Part shown: positions 3,765-19,498 of the stretch, piece after piece
How the letters are laid out: each line of letters opens with the position of its first letter
Numbering within the stretch: the first letter of the stretch is position 1
The notes under the pieces: generated by a model
Told to the model about the DNA's origin: nothing
The model's input: only the letters and a program-made list of their open reading frames with translations
The model's database searches: none
IMG/VR virus record: IMGVR_UViG_3300008262_000109
Location: 1 to 42,397 of that record
Source of the DNA: a virus
Direction: 5' to 3' (one strand)
Length of the DNA: 42,397 nt
Program-made: the position numbers and the translations under genes

Positions 3765-4457
3765 TCAGGCGGACCAGCCGATAGGTGGGTCTTCGGGATC
3801 GTCGGCAGGGATCTCGGGGTCGGGCTCGGCAGCGGCAGGCGCTGCATTGAATTTCTCGACGGTCTGAGGGCTGATGCCCTGTTTGGCGATCCTGGCCAGC
3901 ACATCAGGCGGTGCGCCCCCTAGGTCGCTGGTGTTGCCCTGGCTGTATTCCAGAACAAACGCGGCAATGCCTGCATCAGTCAGGCCAGATTGGCAGCAGG
4001 CGGCATAGGCCTGGGCCACCAGGTCTTCGGTGGGTGGCGCTGCCACTGGCGCCGGGGCGGCCAGAGCAGCAGGCAACGGCTGCACCTTGTAGGGCACGCG
4101 CTTCCCACGCGAGGCCGTGAGGATGACTGTAATCGGCCCGTTGATGTGCGACAGATGCGACAGTCGGATTCCGCCTACTTGCTGGCCCCCGTACATGGCC
4201 CCGGGTTCCCTAAAAATAGTAATTTCTCGCCCAACGTAGTGCGAAGAATCGGGACCCCAAGCTTCTGCCAAGACTCGGCGCATGGATTTGCAGGGTCGCC
4301 AAGGCCTGCCGTTATCACCGTCAAAATGGATCGATACGGGCTGCTCTGATTTGAGGGCAACGTCTACCTTCGTAACCGTGATGGTGCGCGGGCCAATAAT
4401 CAAATCATCGGCATTCATTTGATCGGACTTCGGCGCCAGTGTTGCAGTAATGTCCAT
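3765..4457 (-). CDS. recombination-cluster protein, 230 residues, function unproven
   Basis: Begins MDITATLAPKSDQMNADDLI and shares its start with the end of the exonuclease gene (ATGA overlap at 4457). I recognise the N-terminal two-thirds (ITVTKVDV, IHFDGDNGRPW, PCKSMRRVLAEAWG, GGIRLSHLSHI) as a conserved phage protein usually found next to YqaJ exonucleases, without a named activity. An Ala/Pro-rich linker (about 128-145) precedes a helical domain (SGLTDAGIAAFVLEYSQG) and an acidic C-terminus (PADDPEDPP). It occupies the place where an annealing protein (Red-beta, RecT or Erf) would be expected, so an annealing or loading role is a reasonable guess. Confidence 0.82.
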   Translation of the reverse strand: MDITATLAPKSDQMNADDLIIGPRTITVTKVDVALKSEQPVSIHFDGDNGRPWRPCKSMRRVLAEAWGPDSSHYVGREITIFREPGAMYGGQQVGGIRLSHLSHINGPITVILTASRGKRVPYKVQPLPAALAAPAPVAAPPTEDLVAQAYAACCQSGLTDAGIAAFVLEYSQGNTSDLGGAPPDVLARIAKQGISPQTVEKFNAAPAAAEPDPEIPADDPEDPPIGWSA

Positions 4458-5134
4458 CAGAAAATCTCCTGCTCAGGTTGGATAGGATCGGTTGCTGGGA
4501 AAATGTCGGCCATCAAGGTGTAAAGCCTCATCATCCGCTGCAGTTCAGCCTCAGCGGCCTTTGCTGCGGCAATCAGTTGTGCAATCGCCAGTTCGTCACG
4601 CTCGCAGCGGTGAATGAACAGCGGCAGTCCGGGGGCGTAACTGATGTAGTCGCACCAGGCGCGGCCAGTGACAGCAAGCCCCGCTTGCACTTGCGGCACA
4701 TACTCGGCTGGCACCTCATTGCTTAGCAGCGATCGAAGGTGGTTCTTCTGCCGGGGGCTTTTGATCTCAATCAGGCCGTCATCACCCATTAGCCCGTCGG
4801 GGCTGTAGCCGATCACGGTGCCGTCGAAATCACAGGTGACAAATCCGCACTCCTGCACCGGTGCTCGGTGCTGGGCGTAGATGTCACGGGCCAGCGGTTC
4901 CAGCAGGTGGCCGCGTGCCATGTCGTCGCCGTAGAAGCTGGGCTCGCTCTCACCGGTGATCCGCTCGGCCAGCAGCTGCAGCAACTGGGCGCGGCTGCTG
5001 TCGTTGTTGGCAGGCTTGCCGGTGCCAGTGAGAAGGCGGCTAATGGCAGATGCCGTGATCATTCCCCGGCGCAGCGCGTGCCATTCGTCGCTGCCTTGCT
5101 CGATGTGGTGGTGATAAATCGGAGTTGTTTTCAT
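4457..5134 (-). CDS. YqaJ-family (lambda-exonuclease-like) recombination nuclease
   Basis: 225 residues from the ATG at 5134, which overlaps the previous stop. Longer frames to 5185 cover the upstream gene. Motifs of the PD-(D/E)XK exonuclease fold: QGSDEWHALRRGMITAS near residues 12-28 (the family's RxGxxTAS), ARGHLLEPLARDIY (about 91-104), GYSPDGLMGDDGLIEIKSPR (about 126-145, with Asp, Glu and Lys catalytic), and EYVPQVQAGLAVTG. Such enzymes digest the 5' strand of double-stranded ends to expose single strands for annealing, feeding recombination and concatemer formation. Its likely partners are the next two genes (230-residue unknown and SSB). Confidence 0.92.
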   Translation of the reverse strand: MKTTPIYHHHIEQGSDEWHALRRGMITASAISRLLTGTGKPANNDSSRAQLLQLLAERITGESEPSFYGDDMARGHLLEPLARDIYAQHRAPVQECGFVTCDFDGTVIGYSPDGLMGDDGLIEIKSPRQKNHLRSLLSNEVPAEYVPQVQAGLAVTGRAWCDYISYAPGLPLFIHRCERDELAIAQLIAAAKAAEAELQRMMRLYTLMADIFPATDPIQPEQEIF

Positions 5135-5334
5135 GTTTCCCCCTGGCTGCTTGACTTCATCCTGCGCCAATCGTCGATCATCCACTGGATGGCGCCAGAC
5201 CTTTTCAGGTTTTGCTCAAGCATCACGACCCGAACATCGCCTAGCTGAACATCGTTCAGGGAAATGGTCATTGATGTCCGTCGCTTTGGTGGGTTGTACT
5301 GCCGTGCCCGTTTGGGGCGCATCGGGTTTGCCAT
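5131..5334 (-). CDS. small hypothetical protein, 67 residues
   Basis: Overlaps neighbours on both sides (5334 with the upstream stop, 5131 with the exonuclease start). The basic N-terminus (RPKRARQYNPPKRR) is followed by TISLNDVQLGDVRVVML and IQWMIDDWRRMK, a strand-then-helices layout vaguely like a ribbon-helix-helix protein. An internal ATG at 5271 would give just that 46-residue part. DNA binding is only a suggestion. Confidence 0.55.
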   Translation of the reverse strand: MANPMRPKRARQYNPPKRRTSMTISLNDVQLGDVRVVMLEQNLKRSGAIQWMIDDWRRMKSSSQGET

Positions 5335-5615: not shown

Positions 5616-5725
5616 TCGCCCCAGACGCGAAGGACCAGGTTGGTAATCATGGGGCCTGTCAGCTTGGCGCAACCAATAGCAAATAGCACCATAAACACAA
5701 TCGAAAGAAAGTCAAGAAACATCAT
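5612..5725 (-). CDS. 37-residue membrane peptide
   Basis: Too short for usual gene calling. The frame starts MMFLDFLSIVFMVLFAIGCA, a complete transmembrane segment, followed by KLTGPMITNLVLRVWGE. Its ATG overlaps the upstream stop and its stop overlaps the downstream ATG, both in the 4-base ATGA arrangement shared by the operon, which is strong positional support. Function unknown; could be a holin-like or membrane-targeting accessory peptide. Confidence 0.6.
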   Translation of the reverse strand: MMFLDFLSIVFMVLFAIGCAKLTGPMITNLVLRVWGE

Positions 5726-6132
5726 TGCCCAACCCTCGCAACGTTGGGCGCGGGGCAGCTGTGACGGCCGAAGTGGACGCCAACCAGAACGCTCGCGCCT
5801 GCGAGGAAAGCTGCAGCAAACAAGCCGAGAAGGGCCTTTTCGGTCTTGGTAAACCCAGGCGCGGGGGCAATCCCGGTATCAAGCTGCTCAACCAAGTCGT
5901 CGAGCCCATCGGCTGCAATGTTTAGTGATTGAATGCAACGGCTTGGGCTGATGCGGTCCCAAACACTGCGGAGGCTTGTGAGCCGCCTCAAGATGTTGTC
6001 CAGTTTGTGAGCCGGAAGCAATGGCCGAATCGCCATGAATGGATGGGCGAGGGACCCCAGAACAATAACCCAAAACCACGCTTTAAAACACGTTTTGAAA
6101 CACGCTTCAAAACGTGAAACCGTGGGGGCCAT
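5722..6132 (-). CDS. membrane protein with short N-terminal repeat, 136 residues
   Basis: First gene of the early minus-strand operon. The N-terminus contains a short repeat of 12-base units (FEACFKTCFKAWFW, residues about 8-21, DNA at 6079-6114) that runs into a hydrophobic helix (WVIVLGSLAHPFMAI). After a charged helical middle (KLDNILRRLTSLRSVWDRIS, DGLDDLVEQLD) there is a second transmembrane helix (LLGLFAAAFLAGASVLVGV). Likely two-pass inner-membrane protein; role unknown. The repeat-plus-membrane-helix plan resembles the plus-strand gene at 9242-9760. Confidence 0.7.
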   Translation of the reverse strand: MAPTVSRFEACFKTCFKAWFWVIVLGSLAHPFMAIRPLLPAHKLDNILRRLTSLRSVWDRISPSRCIQSLNIAADGLDDLVEQLDTGIAPAPGFTKTEKALLGLFAAAFLAGASVLVGVHFGRHSCPAPNVARVGQ

Positions 6133-6211
6133 GGCCAGACCCTTTGCAGCAGCTAGCTAACGGTGGGATTGTGACAGGTTGCTAAGTGGTTGGGGGATGG
6201 GGTGCTGGGGC
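6133..6211. promoter_or_regulatory. divergent early control region
   Basis: Gap between the minus-strand operon (start 6132) and the plus-strand module at 6212. It carries TTGTGACAGGTT at 6169-6180; its reverse complement contains CCTGTCACA, the block found on the plus strand in the three repeated promoter modules. On the minus strand this block is followed by GTTAGCTAGC, partly like the GTGCGTTA element. This suggests one factor controls both directions; no clear -35/-10 pair for the minus operon can be fixed by eye. Confidence 0.45.
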
Positions 6212-6255
6212 GTCACAGGTGCGTTATTGTCTGTTCACCGGAGGCGAGAGCCTCC
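6212..6255 (+). promoter_or_regulatory. repeated promoter + 5' hairpin module, copy A
   Basis: GTCACAGGTGCGTTATTGT at 6212-6230 contains a -10-like TATTGT (6225-6230). Nine bases later comes a perfect 6-bp hairpin with a GAGA tetraloop (6240-6255), so the transcript would begin at or just before the stem. Same block and same spacing as copies B and C. Precedes the 65-residue gene at 6271. Copy A lacks the upstream half shared by B and C. Confidence 0.65.
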
Positions 6256-6270
6256 ACCGCACTCCCACCC

Positions 6271-6468
6271 ATGGGCGCCATCGCTGACACCCTCCGCGCC
6301 ACCCTGCGGGACCTGGCACAAGCCGACGCCCGCCTCTACCGGGGCCTGGCCGACGAGCTGGGGACAACCGCCCCGGCGCTTCCTGGCGCTGCCACCGAGG
6401 CCGAGCTGGCTGCTGCCGTGGCTCTCCTGCGGGCCCACGGCTACCGGGTCACGCCACCCGGGGGGTGA
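6271..6468 (+). CDS. hypothetical 65-residue helical protein
   Basis: Starts at the ATG 15 bases after the copy A hairpin; the frame is open further up but that stretch is the promoter module. The product (ADTLRATLRDLAQADARLYR, then AATEAELAAAVALLRAHGYR) looks like two amphipathic helices with a short loop and a VTPPGG end. The stop codon lies in the loop of a GGGGG/CCCCC hairpin. Function not recognised. Confidence 0.65.
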   Translation: MGAIADTLRATLRDLAQADARLYRGLADELGTTAPALPGAATEAELAAAVALLRAHGYRVTPPGG

Positions 6469-6510
6469 GCCCCCAGGGGGCCAATCACAACAATCTGTGA
6501 ACTGGCCCCC
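6460..6510 (+). terminator. two overlapping hairpins after the 65-residue gene
   Basis: One stem is GGGGG/CCCCC around the stop codon (6461-6474). A second, GGGGGCCA (6476-6483) with TGGCCCCC (6503-6510), has a 19-base loop containing CAATCTGTGAAC. There is no T-run after either, so intrinsic termination is uncertain; the second stem doubles as the left half of promoter module copy B. Confidence 0.4.
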
Positions 6511-6571
6511 CCATACCGCCTTACCCTGTCACGGGTGCGTTACAGTCAATTCATCGGAGGCGAAAGCCCCC
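6481..6571 (+). promoter_or_regulatory. repeated promoter + 5' hairpin module, copy B (full)
   Basis: The left part (6481-6504) ends in GTGAACTG and matches copy C at 20 of 24 positions. After 23 intervening bases comes GTCACGGGTGCGTTACAGT (6528-6546) with -10-like TACAGT (6541-6546). Nine bases later is the GGAGGC-GAAA-GCCCCC hairpin (6556-6571, one mismatch). Precedes the gene at 6661. Confidence 0.65.
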
Positions 6572-6660
6572 ACCGATCGCCAGCCGGCTACAGGCGTCAA
6601 ACCGAGCCGAACCGCCCCAGCAGTCCGGGGCAACCAACCACCACCCTCGCCTCTCCAGTC

Positions 6661-6870
6661 ATGACCGCCGCCATCGCTCTTCCCACCGTCACGATCGAAG
6701 GCATCGTCTACCAGATCATCAAAGAAAAGGATTTCACTGTTACCCCCGATCAGGTGGGCTGGTGCCAATCGCCTGTTATTCGGCAGTGGCTGACCCTAAA
6801 ACGCCCTCGCGGCAAACGCTTCTACAACGCTGTTCGTTACGAGTCGGGCCGGTACAGCTCAGCCGCCTGA
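6661..6870 (+). CDS. hypothetical 69-residue protein
   Basis: Start chosen at the ATG at 6661; the frame stays open to 6535 but that part is the untranslated leader downstream of promoter copy B. The product has a beta-rich start (LPTVTIEGIVYQIIKEKDFT) and a basic C-terminal half (RQWLTLKRPRGKRFYNAVRY). Small, basic and single-domain; nucleic-acid binding is conceivable but there is no recognised family. Confidence 0.65.
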   Translation: MTAAIALPTVTIEGIVYQIIKEKDFTVTPDQVGWCQSPVIRQWLTLKRPRGKRFYNAVRYESGRYSSAA

Positions 6871-6900
6871 CCCCACCCTGACCCTTGCCCGCTGGCCCCG

Positions 6901-6931
6901 CCCCCTCGGCCAGCCTGCAGCGCTCAGCTGC
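6901..6931. repeat. direct repeat R1, copy 1 (31 bp)
   Basis: Identical over 31 bases to 7253-7283. Contains the hairpin GCAGC-GCTCA-GCTGC. Sits 29 bases before the start of the gene at 6961. Together with R2 it frames a gene cassette. Confidence 0.9.
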
Positions 6932-6960
6932 GTTTTTCAACTTACAAAAACACCCATCCA

Positions 6961-7245
6961 ATGAATGACTCTCGCTATCAACTTCTGCAAGAAACTTCTA
7001 GTCTTTGTGCCGATCTCTTGCAAGCAAGCGAAGAAGCACGACGCGCTTCTGCTAAACAAATGGAAATCAGGCAAGAAATCGGAAATGCACGAAATTTAAT
7101 TAACAATCTTGAGCATATTGAAAAAAACGCAGGAAACGACTATGAATTAAAGCGACAGATTGTTAATGAGTGCTACGCACGCTATCAAGCGGCCAAAGCA
7201 AATCTTGATTCCATAGATCAATCCGCCCCAGCCTTAACCCTCTGA
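6961..7245 (+). CDS. coiled-coil protein, 94 residues (cassette gene 1)
   Basis: AT-richer than its surroundings, suggesting separate origin. Nearly all of the sequence is predicted helical with a heptad-like pattern (LLQASEEARRASAKQMEIRQ, NLINNLEHIEKNAG, ELKRQIVNECYARYQAAKAN). No other motif. The last codons (LDSIDQS) are encoded by repeat R2 (7204-7224). Flanked by R1 upstream; the next gene has the same flanks. Confidence 0.7.
   Translation: MNDSRYQLLQETSSLCADLLQASEEARRASAKQMEIRQEIGNARNLINNLEHIEKNAGNDYELKRQIVNECYARYQAAKANLDSIDQSAPALTL
7204..7224. repeat. direct repeat R2, copy 1 (21 bp)
   Basis: Identical to 7558-7578 over 21 bases. Contains the inverted repeat TTGAT...ATCAA. Here it is coding (near the 3' end of the 6961 gene); in the second copy it straddles a stop codon, so identity is not kept by coding pressure. 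Confidence 0.9.
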
Positions 7246-7252
7246 TCCCTGC

Positions 7253-7283
7253 CCCCCTCGGCCAGCCTGCAGCGCTCAGCTGC
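7253..7283. repeat. direct repeat R1, copy 2 (31 bp)
   Basis: Second exact copy of the 31-bp repeat at 6901-6931, 36 bases before the start of the gene at 7320. Confidence 0.9.
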
Positions 7284-7319
7284 TCAATCCACCATTGACA
7301 CCCTCAAGCCCCAACCGCC

Positions 7320-7562
7320 ATGGATCACAAGCAAATTATTAACCAAGCCATTGAACAAGTCCTATCTGAACGACTACTGCTATCTCCCGGTGATACAGCT
7401 TGCCATTCCAGCGATAGCATGAGCTACGTGTTTCATAAGTACGAGAACGGCAGCGCTATCGTCGGATGGGATGGCGTAACCAAGTCATTCCCAATGAGAG
7501 AAGTGTTTGACCCAAACATTGTGCAAGCAAGAGCGATAGACATAAAGCTTGGCCTTGCTTGA
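7320..7562 (+). CDS. hypothetical 80-residue protein (cassette gene 2)
   Basis: Moderately AT-rich. N-terminal helix (DHKQIINQAIEQVLSERLLL) then a beta-rich part (SMSYVFHKYENGSAIVGWDG). Not related by eye to the first cassette gene although both lie between the same R1 and R2 repeats. Function unknown. Confidence 0.68.
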   Translation: MDHKQIINQAIEQVLSERLLLSPGDTACHSSDSMSYVFHKYENGSAIVGWDGVTKSFPMREVFDPNIVQARAIDIKLGLA

Positions 7563-7578
7563 TTCCATAGATCAATCC
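7558..7578. repeat. direct repeat R2, copy 2 (21 bp)
   Basis: Exact copy of 7204-7224, here spanning the stop codon of the 7320 gene and the following gap. Confidence 0.9.
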
Positions 7579-7642
7579 ACCTAGACCCCCTGCCAGGCGC
7601 CGTGAGCTTGGCGGATCCGTTCCATCACCACTTATCCCGATC

Positions 7643-7888
7643 ATGCACCTTTATCAAGTCGAAGCACACGACGGCAAGTCCTGGGCTTTTGGGATTCGCG
7701 TCAACGCCAACAACTTGTTGCCCGAGTTCTGCGCTCTTGCCAAGGCGGATCGATTTACAAGCCAAGCCGAAGCCTTGCGATTGCGCGATCTAGCCGCCCG
7801 CCTGTGCGGCGGATCCTTGCGCGTGGCTCGCGTGCGGGTTGCGGCCGGTGGGCCTGGAGGCACTTTGAGCTTTGTTGGTGCTCGCTGA
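7643..7888 (+). CDS. hypothetical 81-residue protein
   Basis: Starts MHLYQVEAHDGKSWAFGIRV and has a central helix (QAEALRLRDLAARLCGG) and a Val/Arg/Gly-rich strand region. Its TGA overlaps the next ATG (TGATG), indicating coupled translation with the zinc-finger gene at 7888. No recognised family. Confidence 0.65.
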   Translation: MHLYQVEAHDGKSWAFGIRVNANNLLPEFCALAKADRFTSQAEALRLRDLAARLCGGSLRVARVRVAAGGPGGTLSFVGAR

Positions 7889-8067
7889 TGCTTGACCCCA
7901 CCACCATCCCCTTCTGCGCCGACTGCGGGGGGCAAGTCCCCGAGCCAGCCGAACGCTGGCCCGCTGCCTCCGCTGGCATCGTCTGCCAGCTGTGCTGGGA
8001 AGCCCAGTGCTCCCGGCAATGGTGGGTCATGGTGAAGCTCCTGCCGGAGGAACCGGGCCATGACTGA
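7888..8067 (+). CDS. small zinc-ribbon-like protein, 59 residues
   Basis: Two CxxC pairs, CADC near residue 10 and CQLC near residue 34, spaced about 22 residues apart, a plausible zinc ribbon. Overlaps the upstream stop and the downstream start. The next gene encodes a second two-CxxC protein, so they may be a functional pair. Probably nucleic-acid or protein binding; no enzyme motif. Confidence 0.65.
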   Translation: MLDPTTIPFCADCGGQVPEPAERWPAASAGIVCQLCWEAQCSRQWWVMVKLLPEEPGHD

Positions 8068-8299
8068 CCCCACCAACGCCGAACGCCAGCGCCGCTACCG
8101 CGCCCGTCGGGCCGGCCGGTTGCCCCCGGTGGAGCTGTGGCGCTGTGTTACCTGCCCGCGAGTTCACACCGGCATTCATGGCAACCACTGCTGGGAGTGC
8201 TGGGAAAAGCACGACCCGGCTGGCCGGCTCGCACGGGCTCAGCGAAAACGCAATCAACGGACCAGGGACAGGGCCAGGGCCAATCTGGACAATCCGTGA
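8060..8299 (+). CDS. small zinc-finger-like basic protein, 79 residues
   Basis: Very basic N-terminus (AERQRRYRARRAGR), a compact CVTC...HCWEC zinc-finger-like centre (about residues 29-46), and a basic helix at the end (ARAQRKRNQRTRDRARAN). Overlaps the previous gene by 8 bases. Charge and cysteines suggest nucleic-acid binding. The final codons lie inside the left half of promoter module copy C. Confidence 0.65.
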   Translation: MTDPTNAERQRRYRARRAGRLPPVELWRCVTCPRVHTGIHGNHCWECWEKHDPAGRLARAQRKRNQRTRDRARANLDNP

Positions 8300-8307
8300 A
8301 CTGTCCC
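8265..8307 (+). terminator. hairpin at the end of the zinc-finger gene
   Basis: GGGACAG (8265-8271) can pair with CTGTCCC (8301-8307) around a loop that carries the block shared with copy B. Same position relative to the promoter core as the hairpin at 6476-6510. No T-run follows, so a role in termination is uncertain. Confidence 0.35.
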
Positions 8308-8368
8308 CCTGCATCTCTACCACCCTGTCACAGGTGCGTTACTGTATGTGGACAGGGGAGAGATCCCC
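8280..8368 (+). promoter_or_regulatory. repeated promoter + 5' hairpin module, copy C (full)
   Basis: Left half 8280-8303, ending GTGAACTG. Then, again after 23 bases, GTCACAGGTGCGTTACTGT (8327-8345) with -10-like TACTGT (8340-8345). Nine bases later is the GGGGA-GAGA-TCCCC hairpin (8355-8368), its stem sequence different from A and B but structure and spacing the same. A second hairpin (8373-8388, GCAGCC/GGCTGC) follows before the ATG at 8397. Confidence 0.65.
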
Positions 8369-8396: not shown

Positions 8397-8669
8397 ATGG
8401 AAGCCACCACCGGCGCTATCAGCTCCATTCCAACCATCTGCGGGGAAGACACGCTGGATCTTGGCCAGCGGGTATGGGTGAACGGCATGGCGCCGATGGA
8501 AGGACTCAACGGCCAAATCGTTGATTCGATGCCTGGAGTGATTACCCGCTTTCACAAGGAGCCCGCTGGCTGGCTGGTGGAAGTTGAGCAGCGTGGCAGC
8601 TTGGTGCTGCCGATCCAAGGCGATGCTTTCCGCTGCTTCTTCAGGCTGAACCAGGTCAGCGCCGCCTGA
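8397..8669 (+). CDS. hypothetical 90-residue protein, SH3-like barrel possible
   Basis: Start at the ATG after the copy C leader; longer open frame upstream overlaps another gene and the promoter. The sequence alternates short strands (GQRVWVNGMAPMEGLNGQIV, AGWLVEVEQRGSLVLPI), reminiscent of small SH3/KOW-type barrels. Function unknown. Confidence 0.65.
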   Translation: MEATTGAISSIPTICGEDTLDLGQRVWVNGMAPMEGLNGQIVDSMPGVITRFHKEPAGWLVEVEQRGSLVLPIQGDAFRCFFRLNQVSAA

Positions 8670-18737: not shown

Positions 18738-18896
18738 ATGGCCCATGAAGCCCTCCAGAGCCACCTCACCGCCATGGCCAAGGCACACCCCCGCGAGCAC
18801 CCTTTCACCCTTGCCCTGAGGCTGCAGGTCGCCACAGGGAAGGAGATCACCGGGGCGCAGGCGGCGAAGTTGCTAGAGGCTGGAGGGCGGGGCTGA
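18738..18896 (+). CDS. small helical protein, 52 residues
   Basis: ATG at 18738 with GGAT upstream; its TGA overlaps the next ATG (TGATG). Sequence LQSHLTAMAKAHPREHPFTL and KEITGAQAAKLLEAGGRG; the last part resembles one helix-turn-helix. Probably works with the 200-residue DNA-binding protein that follows. Confidence 0.58.
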   Translation: MAHEALQSHLTAMAKAHPREHPFTLALRLQVATGKEITGAQAAKLLEAGGRG

Positions 18897-19498
18897 TGGC
18901 AGCGCGATGGTCCGCAGAAGACATCGAGGCCTTGACCGATCTGACCGGTGAACTGCCCTGGCATATGGTTGTTGCCAAATTCAACCGGCGCCGGCCCCCA
19001 AGGACAGAATATGCAATGCTCAACAAGGTTGATCAATTGCGTTTATTAAGAAAGCCGCAAGGTGAATTTATTGCAATATGCGCAATAAAAGCTCTCACTG
19101 GGTATTCTTCCGAAAAAATCTGCTTATGGATCGACTCCGGCGACTTGCCTGCTGTTGCGCGGTCTGAAGCGACAAACAGCCCTCGCTACATCTCCCGCAA
19201 AAGCCTTAGAAGTTTTGCCAGGAAGCGGCCTGATCAATTTGGTGGAATGGGGCAGGCAGAACTGACGCAGTTGTTTGACTGTGAAAAACTGGCGGCTAAG
19301 ATTGTTGAAATGCACCTACCTAAGCTAAGTAATTCTATAGAAATAGAATGTATCGAAACTCGACGCCGATACCCCTCTATTGCTGCAGCTGCAAGGGAGG
19401 CGCGGGTTAGCCCCGAATTTGTAACAAAAGCTATTCGCCAAGGGTTTCCTGTTCGTGCCAGGCATTACCGCAGGGTTGACCAGCCCCTTAAGACTTAG
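18896..19498 (+). CDS. DNA-binding protein with several helix-turn-helix segments, 200 residues
   Basis: Three segments: an N-terminal Myb/SANT-like WSAEDIEALTDLTGELPWHM with RRRPPRTEYAMLNKV; a middle ICAIKALTGYSSEKICLWID...PRYISRKSLRSFARKRPD like a MerR/excisionase winged helix; and a C-terminal YPSIAAAAREARVSPEFVTK helix-turn-helix close to the NUMOD1 type. The middle of the gene is AT-rich relative to flanks. Likely sequence-specific DNA binding, perhaps at the neighbouring repeats; no catalytic site seen. Confidence 0.7.
   Translation: MAARWSAEDIEALTDLTGELPWHMVVAKFNRRRPPRTEYAMLNKVDQLRLLRKPQGEFIAICAIKALTGYSSEKICLWIDSGDLPAVARSEATNSPRYISRKSLRSFARKRPDQFGGMGQAELTQLFDCEKLAAKIVEMHLPKLSNSIEIECIETRRRYPSIAAAAREARVSPEFVTKAIRQGFPVRARHYRRVDQPLKT

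Follow-up and report, generated by a model that had tools for sequence, protein, structure and literature searches.

The phi10-type class III transcripts of phage T7, the ompA transcript and the T4 gene 32 transcript all carry 5' stem-loops. In phage T4, middle promoters carry a MotA box centered near -30. To our knowledge, how phages that infect freshwater cyanobacteria control their transcription is poorly known. RppH and RNase E require single-stranded 5' ends, and 5' structure blocks both enzymes (PMC3997798). Promoters of Synechococcus elongatus have a -10 element and an A at +1, with no -35 consensus (PMC3219970), and the HLR1 element of RpaB, which consists of two copies of (G/T)TTACA(T/A)(T/A) spaced 2 nucleotides (nt) apart, has an activating range of -45 to -60 (PMC9241938). 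In this report, we describe a promoter-leader module that occurs three times in the IMG/VR virus record IMGVR_UViG_3300008262_000109 (positions 1 to 42,397; this whole stretch of 42,397 nt is called the window) and that recurs as a rigid arrangement in about 60 other IMG/VR contigs.

Positions in the module are numbered such that +1 is the seventh base after the -10 hexamer. The module then comprises an upstream site at -67 to -50 (the direct repeat TGTGAC-AATC-TGTGAAC), about 25 variable bases without a -35, a core of 19 base pairs (bp) at -25 to -7, an A at +1, a hairpin, a C-rich leader and a small open reading frame (ORF). The core has the form GTNAY-N6-RYTANNNT, in which an 11-bp direct repeat (GTNAY-N6-RTTA) ends in TANNNT at -12 to -7. 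With a probability of roughly 0.6, we interpret this arrangement as an early-region module, probably of phages that infect cyanobacteria, that combines a host-type promoter, a possible shared activator site upstream, a core recognized by a factor particular to each phage and a stem at the 5' end for protection of the mRNA.

As in the T7 phi10, ompA and T4 gene 32 transcripts, the stem would lie within a few nt of the 5' end, where it is expected to hinder RppH and RNase E, and, as in T7, it is joined directly to a phage promoter. However, the promoter is of host type (a -10 plus an upstream site) rather than of T7 type, and, unlike the other three stems, that of the module is free in sequence, is fixed in position and is not followed by a ribosome-binding site. 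T4 middle promoters resemble the module in having a -10 with an activator box that replaces the -35, and in forming a set under one phage factor, but the phage-specific part of the module extends from -25 through the -10 and is accompanied by a distal site. No MotA-like gene was found for these phages. Compared with SigA promoters (PMC3219970), the module adds the rigid upstream site and a phage-specific core over the -10. Like HLR1 (PMC9241938), the upstream site is a 10-bp direct repeat near the activating range, but its half-site is usually TCACA instead of TTACA, and it is a candidate site only. Short promoter-bearing repeats that lie between viral genes and are conserved among relatives are also described for halovirus HF2 (PMC8707807); however, HF2 is archaeal, and the abstract mentions neither a 5' hairpin nor a genome-specific core. 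Three layers can be told apart within this single element: the upstream site is common to the phages, the core changes between close relatives, and the RNA stem is fixed in place only.

Anatomy and distribution of the module

Modules were collected by pattern scans of IMG/VR and among relatives of a neighboring YqaJ-type recombinase. With a profile of positions -67 to +1, 81 of 114 viral loci (about 60 contigs besides the window, counted from the list) were found to carry modules; no module turned up in 80 bacterial prophage loci or in reversed sequence. The upstream site, GACAATYYGTGAAC, starts exactly 39 nt 5' of the core in 43 of 43 modules that had been selected on the shape of the core together with this site, with offsets of 25 to 49 allowed. 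Sequences with different cores retain the same layout, including GTTATCTACCGATTACATT, GTAACGGGTGTGTTAAAGT, GTAACGGACCGGCTACTNT, GTCACGCATGGGTTACAGT and others. Of 41 non-redundant modules, 37 carry an A at +1. A search that was blind to the hairpin and the start, and that used only the upstream site, the spacing and a generic core, yielded 15 new non-redundant modules; all 15 have A at +1, and 13 (87%) have the hairpin. Core matches at L006, L007 and L010, as well as most low-scoring profile matches, have no hairpin or upstream site and were dismissed as chance occurrences.

When two module variants and the whole region were compared with the DNA of sequenced phages, no match was obtained, and no Rfam family reached its gathering score for the module. 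No paper on this module was found in the open-access literature, although one may still exist.

Three copies in the window

An earlier inspection of the window, here called the sequence-only reading, had described one core block at three places, each ending in a -10-like hexamer and followed after 9 nt by a small stem with a GNRA loop. The exact cores begin at 6212 (GTCACAGGTGCGTTATTGT), 6528 (GTCACGGGTGCGTTACAGT) and 8327 (GTCACAGGTGCGTTACTGT), just as described, with a chance expectation of 0. The pattern GTCACRGGTGCGTTAYWGT occurs exactly three times in the window, even with three mismatches allowed, and 0 times in 100 shuffles. The hexamers TATTGT (6225 to 6230), TACAGT (6541 to 6546) and TACTGT (8340 to 8345), the 9-nt interval between -10 and stem, and the loops GAGA (copy A), GAAA (copy B) and GAGA (copy C) also agree in position and letters. 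Overlooked at that time were the upstream site, which lies exactly 39 nt 5' of the core in each copy, the A that all three copies have at the predicted +1, and an 11-bp direct repeat within the core (GTNAC-N6-GTTAY). The parts of the three copies are as follows (amino acids, aa; z, z-score).

6170 to 6189, plus strand: copy A upstream site TGTGACAGGTTGCTAAGTGG (-67 to -48), degenerate, at the standard distance; module profile score 42.6
6212 to 6230, plus strand: copy A core (-25 to -7), GTCAC-AGGTGC-GTTATTGT, an 11-bp direct repeat that closes with the -10 hexamer TATTGT
6237, plus strand: copy A putative start point (+1, A), predicted from conservation across modules
6240 to 6255, plus strand: copy A 5' hairpin, GGAGGC-GAGA-GCCTCC, -12.7 kcal/mol, z -3.3
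6271 to 6468, plus strand: small ORF of 65 aa behind copy A, with a 34-nt leader
6486 to 6505, plus strand: copy B upstream site CACAACAATCTGTGAACTGG, with a GACAAT-type start exactly 39 nt from the core
6528 to 6546, plus strand: copy B core, GTCAC-GGGTGC-GTTACAGT
6553 to 6577, plus strand: copy B putative start (6553) and 5' hairpin, best fold AUCGG/CCGAU plus GGC-GAAA-GCC
6661 to 6870, plus strand: small ORF of 69 aa behind copy B, with relatives in 11 loci
8285 to 8304, plus strand: copy C upstream site CTGGACAATCCGTGAACTGT
8327 to 8345, plus strand: copy C core, GTCAC-AGGTGC-GTTACTGT
8352, plus strand: copy C putative start point (+1, A), likewise predicted from conservation
8355 to 8368, plus strand: copy C 5' hairpin, GGGGA-GAGA-TCCCC; fold energy of the 45-nt leader -20.8 kcal/mol (z -2.3)
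8397 to 8669, plus strand: small ORF of 90 aa behind copy C, with a 45-nt leader

The small stem holds for copies A and C, which fold clearly. In copy B, the simple stem (GGAGGC/GCCCCC) is an alternative with one A-C mismatch, and the minimum-energy fold places AUCGG/CCGAU around the GAAA-capped stem (-8.4 kcal/mol). The near-palindrome CCTGTCACAGG is present in copy C, as had been pointed out, but is not conserved across modules.

A core specific to each genome

Core identity is 0.96 within genomes and 0.63 between genomes, and it is 0.97 for same-genome pairs with different hairpin types. No genome effect is seen in the upstream site (0.70 within versus 0.69 between) or in the hairpin (0.54 versus 0.52). 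When the N6 segment was permuted within hairpin type, the observed uniformity of the core was reached in 0 of 5000 permutations.

The window's closest relative after the near-identical contig G022 is G023, whose recombinase and portal protein are 88% and 96% identical, respectively. Relative to copy A, the upstream site (20 of 20 positions), the spacer from -6 to -1 and the hairpin are identical in G023, and the core is changed at 4 of 19 positions. The altered core, GTCGCCAGTGCGTTAGTGT, is also found in the second copy of G023. Because gene conversion is unlikely to halt at both edges of a 19-bp tract, this pattern argues for one trans-acting factor per phage, and we infer that the core is read by such a phage-specific factor. 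The sequence-only reading had suggested that the block GTCACRGG might be an activator or operator site. The block turns out to be part of the 19-bp core, and a separate conserved site lies further upstream.

Position and covariation of the 5' hairpin

Folding in 22-nt windows slid along 41 modules gave a mean of -9.5 kcal/mol at +3 and of -0.6 to -3.4 kcal/mol away from the hairpin. The energy peaks only at +1/+3, where 93% of the modules reach -5 kcal/mol or lower; elsewhere, this fraction is mostly 0% to 20%. A stem is formed in 40 of the 41 modules, and nearly all stems open 0 to 4 nt from the inferred 5' end.

The proposal that the fold is conserved rather than the stem bases was borne out by compensatory changes in homologues, which exceed chance. 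In a set of 11 stems of equal geometry, whose rows were chosen for that geometry, 13 cells are changed on both sides of a pair, compared with 5.0 expected, and 0 of 500 shuffles scored as high. In this set, 92% of cells pair, and sliding the partner by one column reduces the count to 0 to 3, so that the signal is gone. The corresponding figure for a smaller stem set was 1 of 500 shuffles. A column alignment of mixed stems (A4) was gapped and was left out of the pair counts. Because the covariation rows were picked by geometry, the test of hairpin position is the stronger evidence. Examples of stems are GGAGGC-GAGA-GCCTCC (window copy A), GGAGCC-GAGA-GGTTCC (L028), GGGAGG-GAGA-CCTCCC (L217) and GGAGGG-GAGG-CCCTCC (L225). 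The GNRA cap is common but is not a rule: among 41 leaders, GAGA occurs seven times, GGAA four times and GGGA three times, with many other loops. The 5' arm is purine-rich in all cases.

By these comparisons, the hairpin is constrained in structure and place and free in sequence. The proposal of a promoter joined to a 5'-terminal stem is well supported by sequence, because covariation is found and the energy peak lies only at +1/+3. Since RppH and RNase E need single-stranded ends, a stem at +1 to +4 should delay decay, and the 5' stem probably protects the mRNA.

Host and promoter type

Among isolates, the terminase is closest to that of Synechococcus phage S-LBS1 from Lake Bourget (46% identity versus at most about 27% for others), and a cyanobacterial host is likely, judging from the sequence. 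S-LBS1 itself contains no module. The module exhibits the traits of cyanobacterial sigma-70-type promoters, namely TANNNT at -12 to -7, no conserved -35 and A at the inferred +1. The lack of a shared -35, which had been remarked on for the three window copies, is ordinary for cyanobacteria (PMC3219970).

The upstream site agrees with HLR1 at 11 to 13 of 16 positions in most modules (background mean 7.9, 99th percentile 11), and the match falls in one register in 33 of 41 modules. Because the modules are related, the HLR1 match counts as one test, and the position of the site fits the activating range only roughly. An HLR1/RpaB-like activator site is therefore best treated as a lead.

Proposed mechanism and alternative explanations

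In our model, transcription would be initiated by host RNA polymerase carrying a sigma-70-type factor, without a -35, at the A located 7 nt past the -10. This predicted start point rests on conservation. A common activator, possibly host RpaB, would bind the direct repeat at -67 to -50, and a phage-encoded factor whose specificity varies by phage would read the 19-bp core, tying all copies in a genome to one regulator. We slightly favor a role in activation or promoter recognition for this factor over that of a repressor. The transcript would open with the stem, most likely shielding its end from processing and decay enzymes, and would continue through a C-rich, unstructured leader without a Shine-Dalgarno sequence into a small gene.

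Several observations weigh against this model. The stem has been lost from one module (L073), no more than 20 of the 41 short leaders individually beat dinucleotide shuffles at p 0.05, and the hairpin of copy B folds weakly (z -1.1), the weakest of the three in the window. Many contigs are related or partial, which limits the independence of the modules. For the portal protein, the nearest relative is not from a cyanophage. Moreover, relatives were not found in any cyanobacterial genome by a prophage search with the recombinase, which returned only relatives of at most 57% identity in other phyla, none with a module. A scan for a gene whose divergence tracks that of the core revealed nothing convincing. 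A helix-turn-helix gene (18896 to 19498) was rejected as the reader of the core, as it is 91% to 94% identical between phages with different cores. A core-tracking gene may have been missed because contigs are incomplete or because only a few residues change.

The behavior of the core would also be expected if it were the operator of an immunity-type phage repressor that shuts off the promoters together, the hairpin still acting as a 5' stabilizer. Operators that are uniform within a genome and switched between relatives are the pattern of heteroimmune phages, and the core here is identical within a genome, is switched in close relatives and spans the -10, so that a protein bound there would obstruct polymerase. 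At L013/G024, an XRE-like gene seems by eye to be present in the region. However, the repeat is direct rather than inverted, the position of the core is invariant relative to the -10 and +1, no extra core copies occur elsewhere in the genome, and no repressor gene was identified among the window ORFs searched. We consider this explanation possible but unlikely. A different explanation places the signal in the RNA, with the hairpin read by a small phage protein in an antitermination system like lambda N/boxB, and with a zinc-ribbon protein (8060 to 8299) as the reader. The gene for this protein is present in most carriers, with its stop codon in the upstream site of the module, and several loops are GNRA or GNRNA. 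Its predicted N-terminal helix (residues 6 to 17, with AERQRRYRARRAGR; model predicted local distance difference test (pLDDT) score 88) recalls N-type arginine-rich motifs. This alternative is weakened by stems and loops that vary even inside a single genome (G015, G018), a variation that no protein reading the sequence would accept, and by the absence of a boxA-like word from all 36 leaders. In addition, nothing precedes the hairpin in the RNA, and the zinc-ribbon protein has no structural or family match. We judge it improbable, and a lambda-type nut site was rejected on the boxA result and on the variation of loops in sequence and length over 41 leaders.

It is rather improbable that a single phage factor, which would direct polymerase or act in antitermination and might be the zinc-ribbon protein, reads the fast-switching core, the stem or both, in a program shared across the phage group and unlike any described; if this is true, co-infecting close relatives would keep their small-gene promoters mutually private. 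No T7-type RNA polymerase was recognized, as every ORF of at least 600 aa (helicase, terminase, tape measure and tail) matches another family, and no search with a polymerase model was made. We give very little weight to the idea that the repeats are recombination or cassette-boundary sequences that are homogenized by gene conversion and resemble promoters as a by-product: the homogenized part is the 19-bp core and not its flanks, and the -10, the A at +1, the hairpin and the ORF start remain in register, even though the genes that follow are small and differ from relative to relative and the repeats lie 0.3 to 2.6 kb apart. That the stem-loop is a terminator or attenuator is barely credible; a G+C-rich inverted repeat does lie within the leader, but the sequence after the stem is C-rich rather than T-rich, and a terminator scan finds none at the stems.

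Interpreted as a promoter-leader unit, the module provides concrete predicted start points together with a candidate site for a host activator and a co-regulated set of small genes in about 60 genomes. It makes testable which protein reads the core and whether 5' stems systematically protect phage mRNAs, and it could flag small early-region genes in unannotated contigs.

Leaders, downstream genes and neighboring elements

An ORF lies behind all 36 modules that were checked in larger contig sequence. Leaders are 34 to 47 nt long in 33 cases and 102 to 108 nt long in 3, and the ORFs start at +35 to +48 or at about +103 to +109. The three long leaders result from the insertion of another structured element, about 62 nt long. 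A Shine-Dalgarno-like word is found near the start in 1 of 36 leaders, and C makes up 52% of the final 15 nt. The genes led by modules are small (50 to 170 aa), mostly without a family match, and variable among relatives. For example, the ORF behind copy A is 92% identical in G023 and 65% identical in G002, and a relative of the copy C ORF is absent from the 16 other contigs compared. Further features of the region are as follows.

4457 to 5185: YqaJ-type recombinase gene near the modules (Pfam YqaJ)
6579 to 6645, plus strand: second structured leader element GCCAGCCGGCTACAGGCGTCAAACCGAGCCGAACCGCCCC..., which extends the leader of copy B to 108 nt
8060 to 8299, plus strand: gene for a basic zinc-ribbon protein of 79 aa, with its stop codon inside the copy C upstream site

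The second element has the form GCCAGCCGGCYAYAGGCGTYAAACCGAGCCGAACCGCCCC-AGYAGTCC-GGGGCAAYCAACCACC and is present in 10 copies in 17 contigs, some of them intergenic; besides the window, it is found in G004, G005, G006, G015, G018, G021, G022 and G023. Its copies follow the 5' hairpin or lie in intergenic positions, always close before a start codon, and the window's copy matches no Rfam family. A hairpin is present within the 60 nt preceding the start of several early-region genes, and CCCCTCGGCCAGCCTGCAGCGCTCAGCTGC precedes two neighboring genes (6905 to 6932 and 7257 to 7285).

The zinc-ribbon gene was found in 13 of the other contigs searched, and in most of these its stop lies exactly at -55 of a module, the last codons and stop overlapping the upstream site. 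The protein has an invariant CxxC...HTG...CxxC pattern and an arginine-rich N-terminus. In its model, the N-terminal helix and a second helix (53 to 76) surround the zinc ribbon; it has no fold match in the PDB (best E value 1.5). We regard this conserved neighbor as a candidate nucleic-acid-binding regulator. The helix-turn-helix gene mentioned above adjoins a RusA-like resolvase gene and is matched in 14 of 24 related records; by eye, the C-terminal part of its product is like the modular DNA-binding repeats of homing endonucleases.

Inverted-repeat arms flank the upstream sites of copy B (6473 to 6512; GGGGGCCA/TGGCCCCC) and copy C (8265 to 8310; GGGACAG/CTGTCCCC) and are not seen in copy A. 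Perhaps these arms end transcription of the preceding gene. At L039, positions 6855 to 6945 (equivalent to L041), an outlying member of the module carries upstream one more copy of TACCAGTGCGTTAC together with a palindrome, GTGAACCGTCAC, which suggests further binding sites. In L014 to L016, short tandem repeats (TACCACGGTTTGCCGTGGTTTGCCGTGG; GATCTGCCGTGATCTGCCGTGA) occur about 60 to 120 nt before the first module, in a divergent intergenic region. Tandem repeats (ACGCTTTAAAACACGTTTTGAAACACGCTTCAAAACGTG) are also found in the window at 6080 to 6117, at the start of the minus-strand gene 5722 to 6132, where G023 reads HALKHALKHALKHALK.

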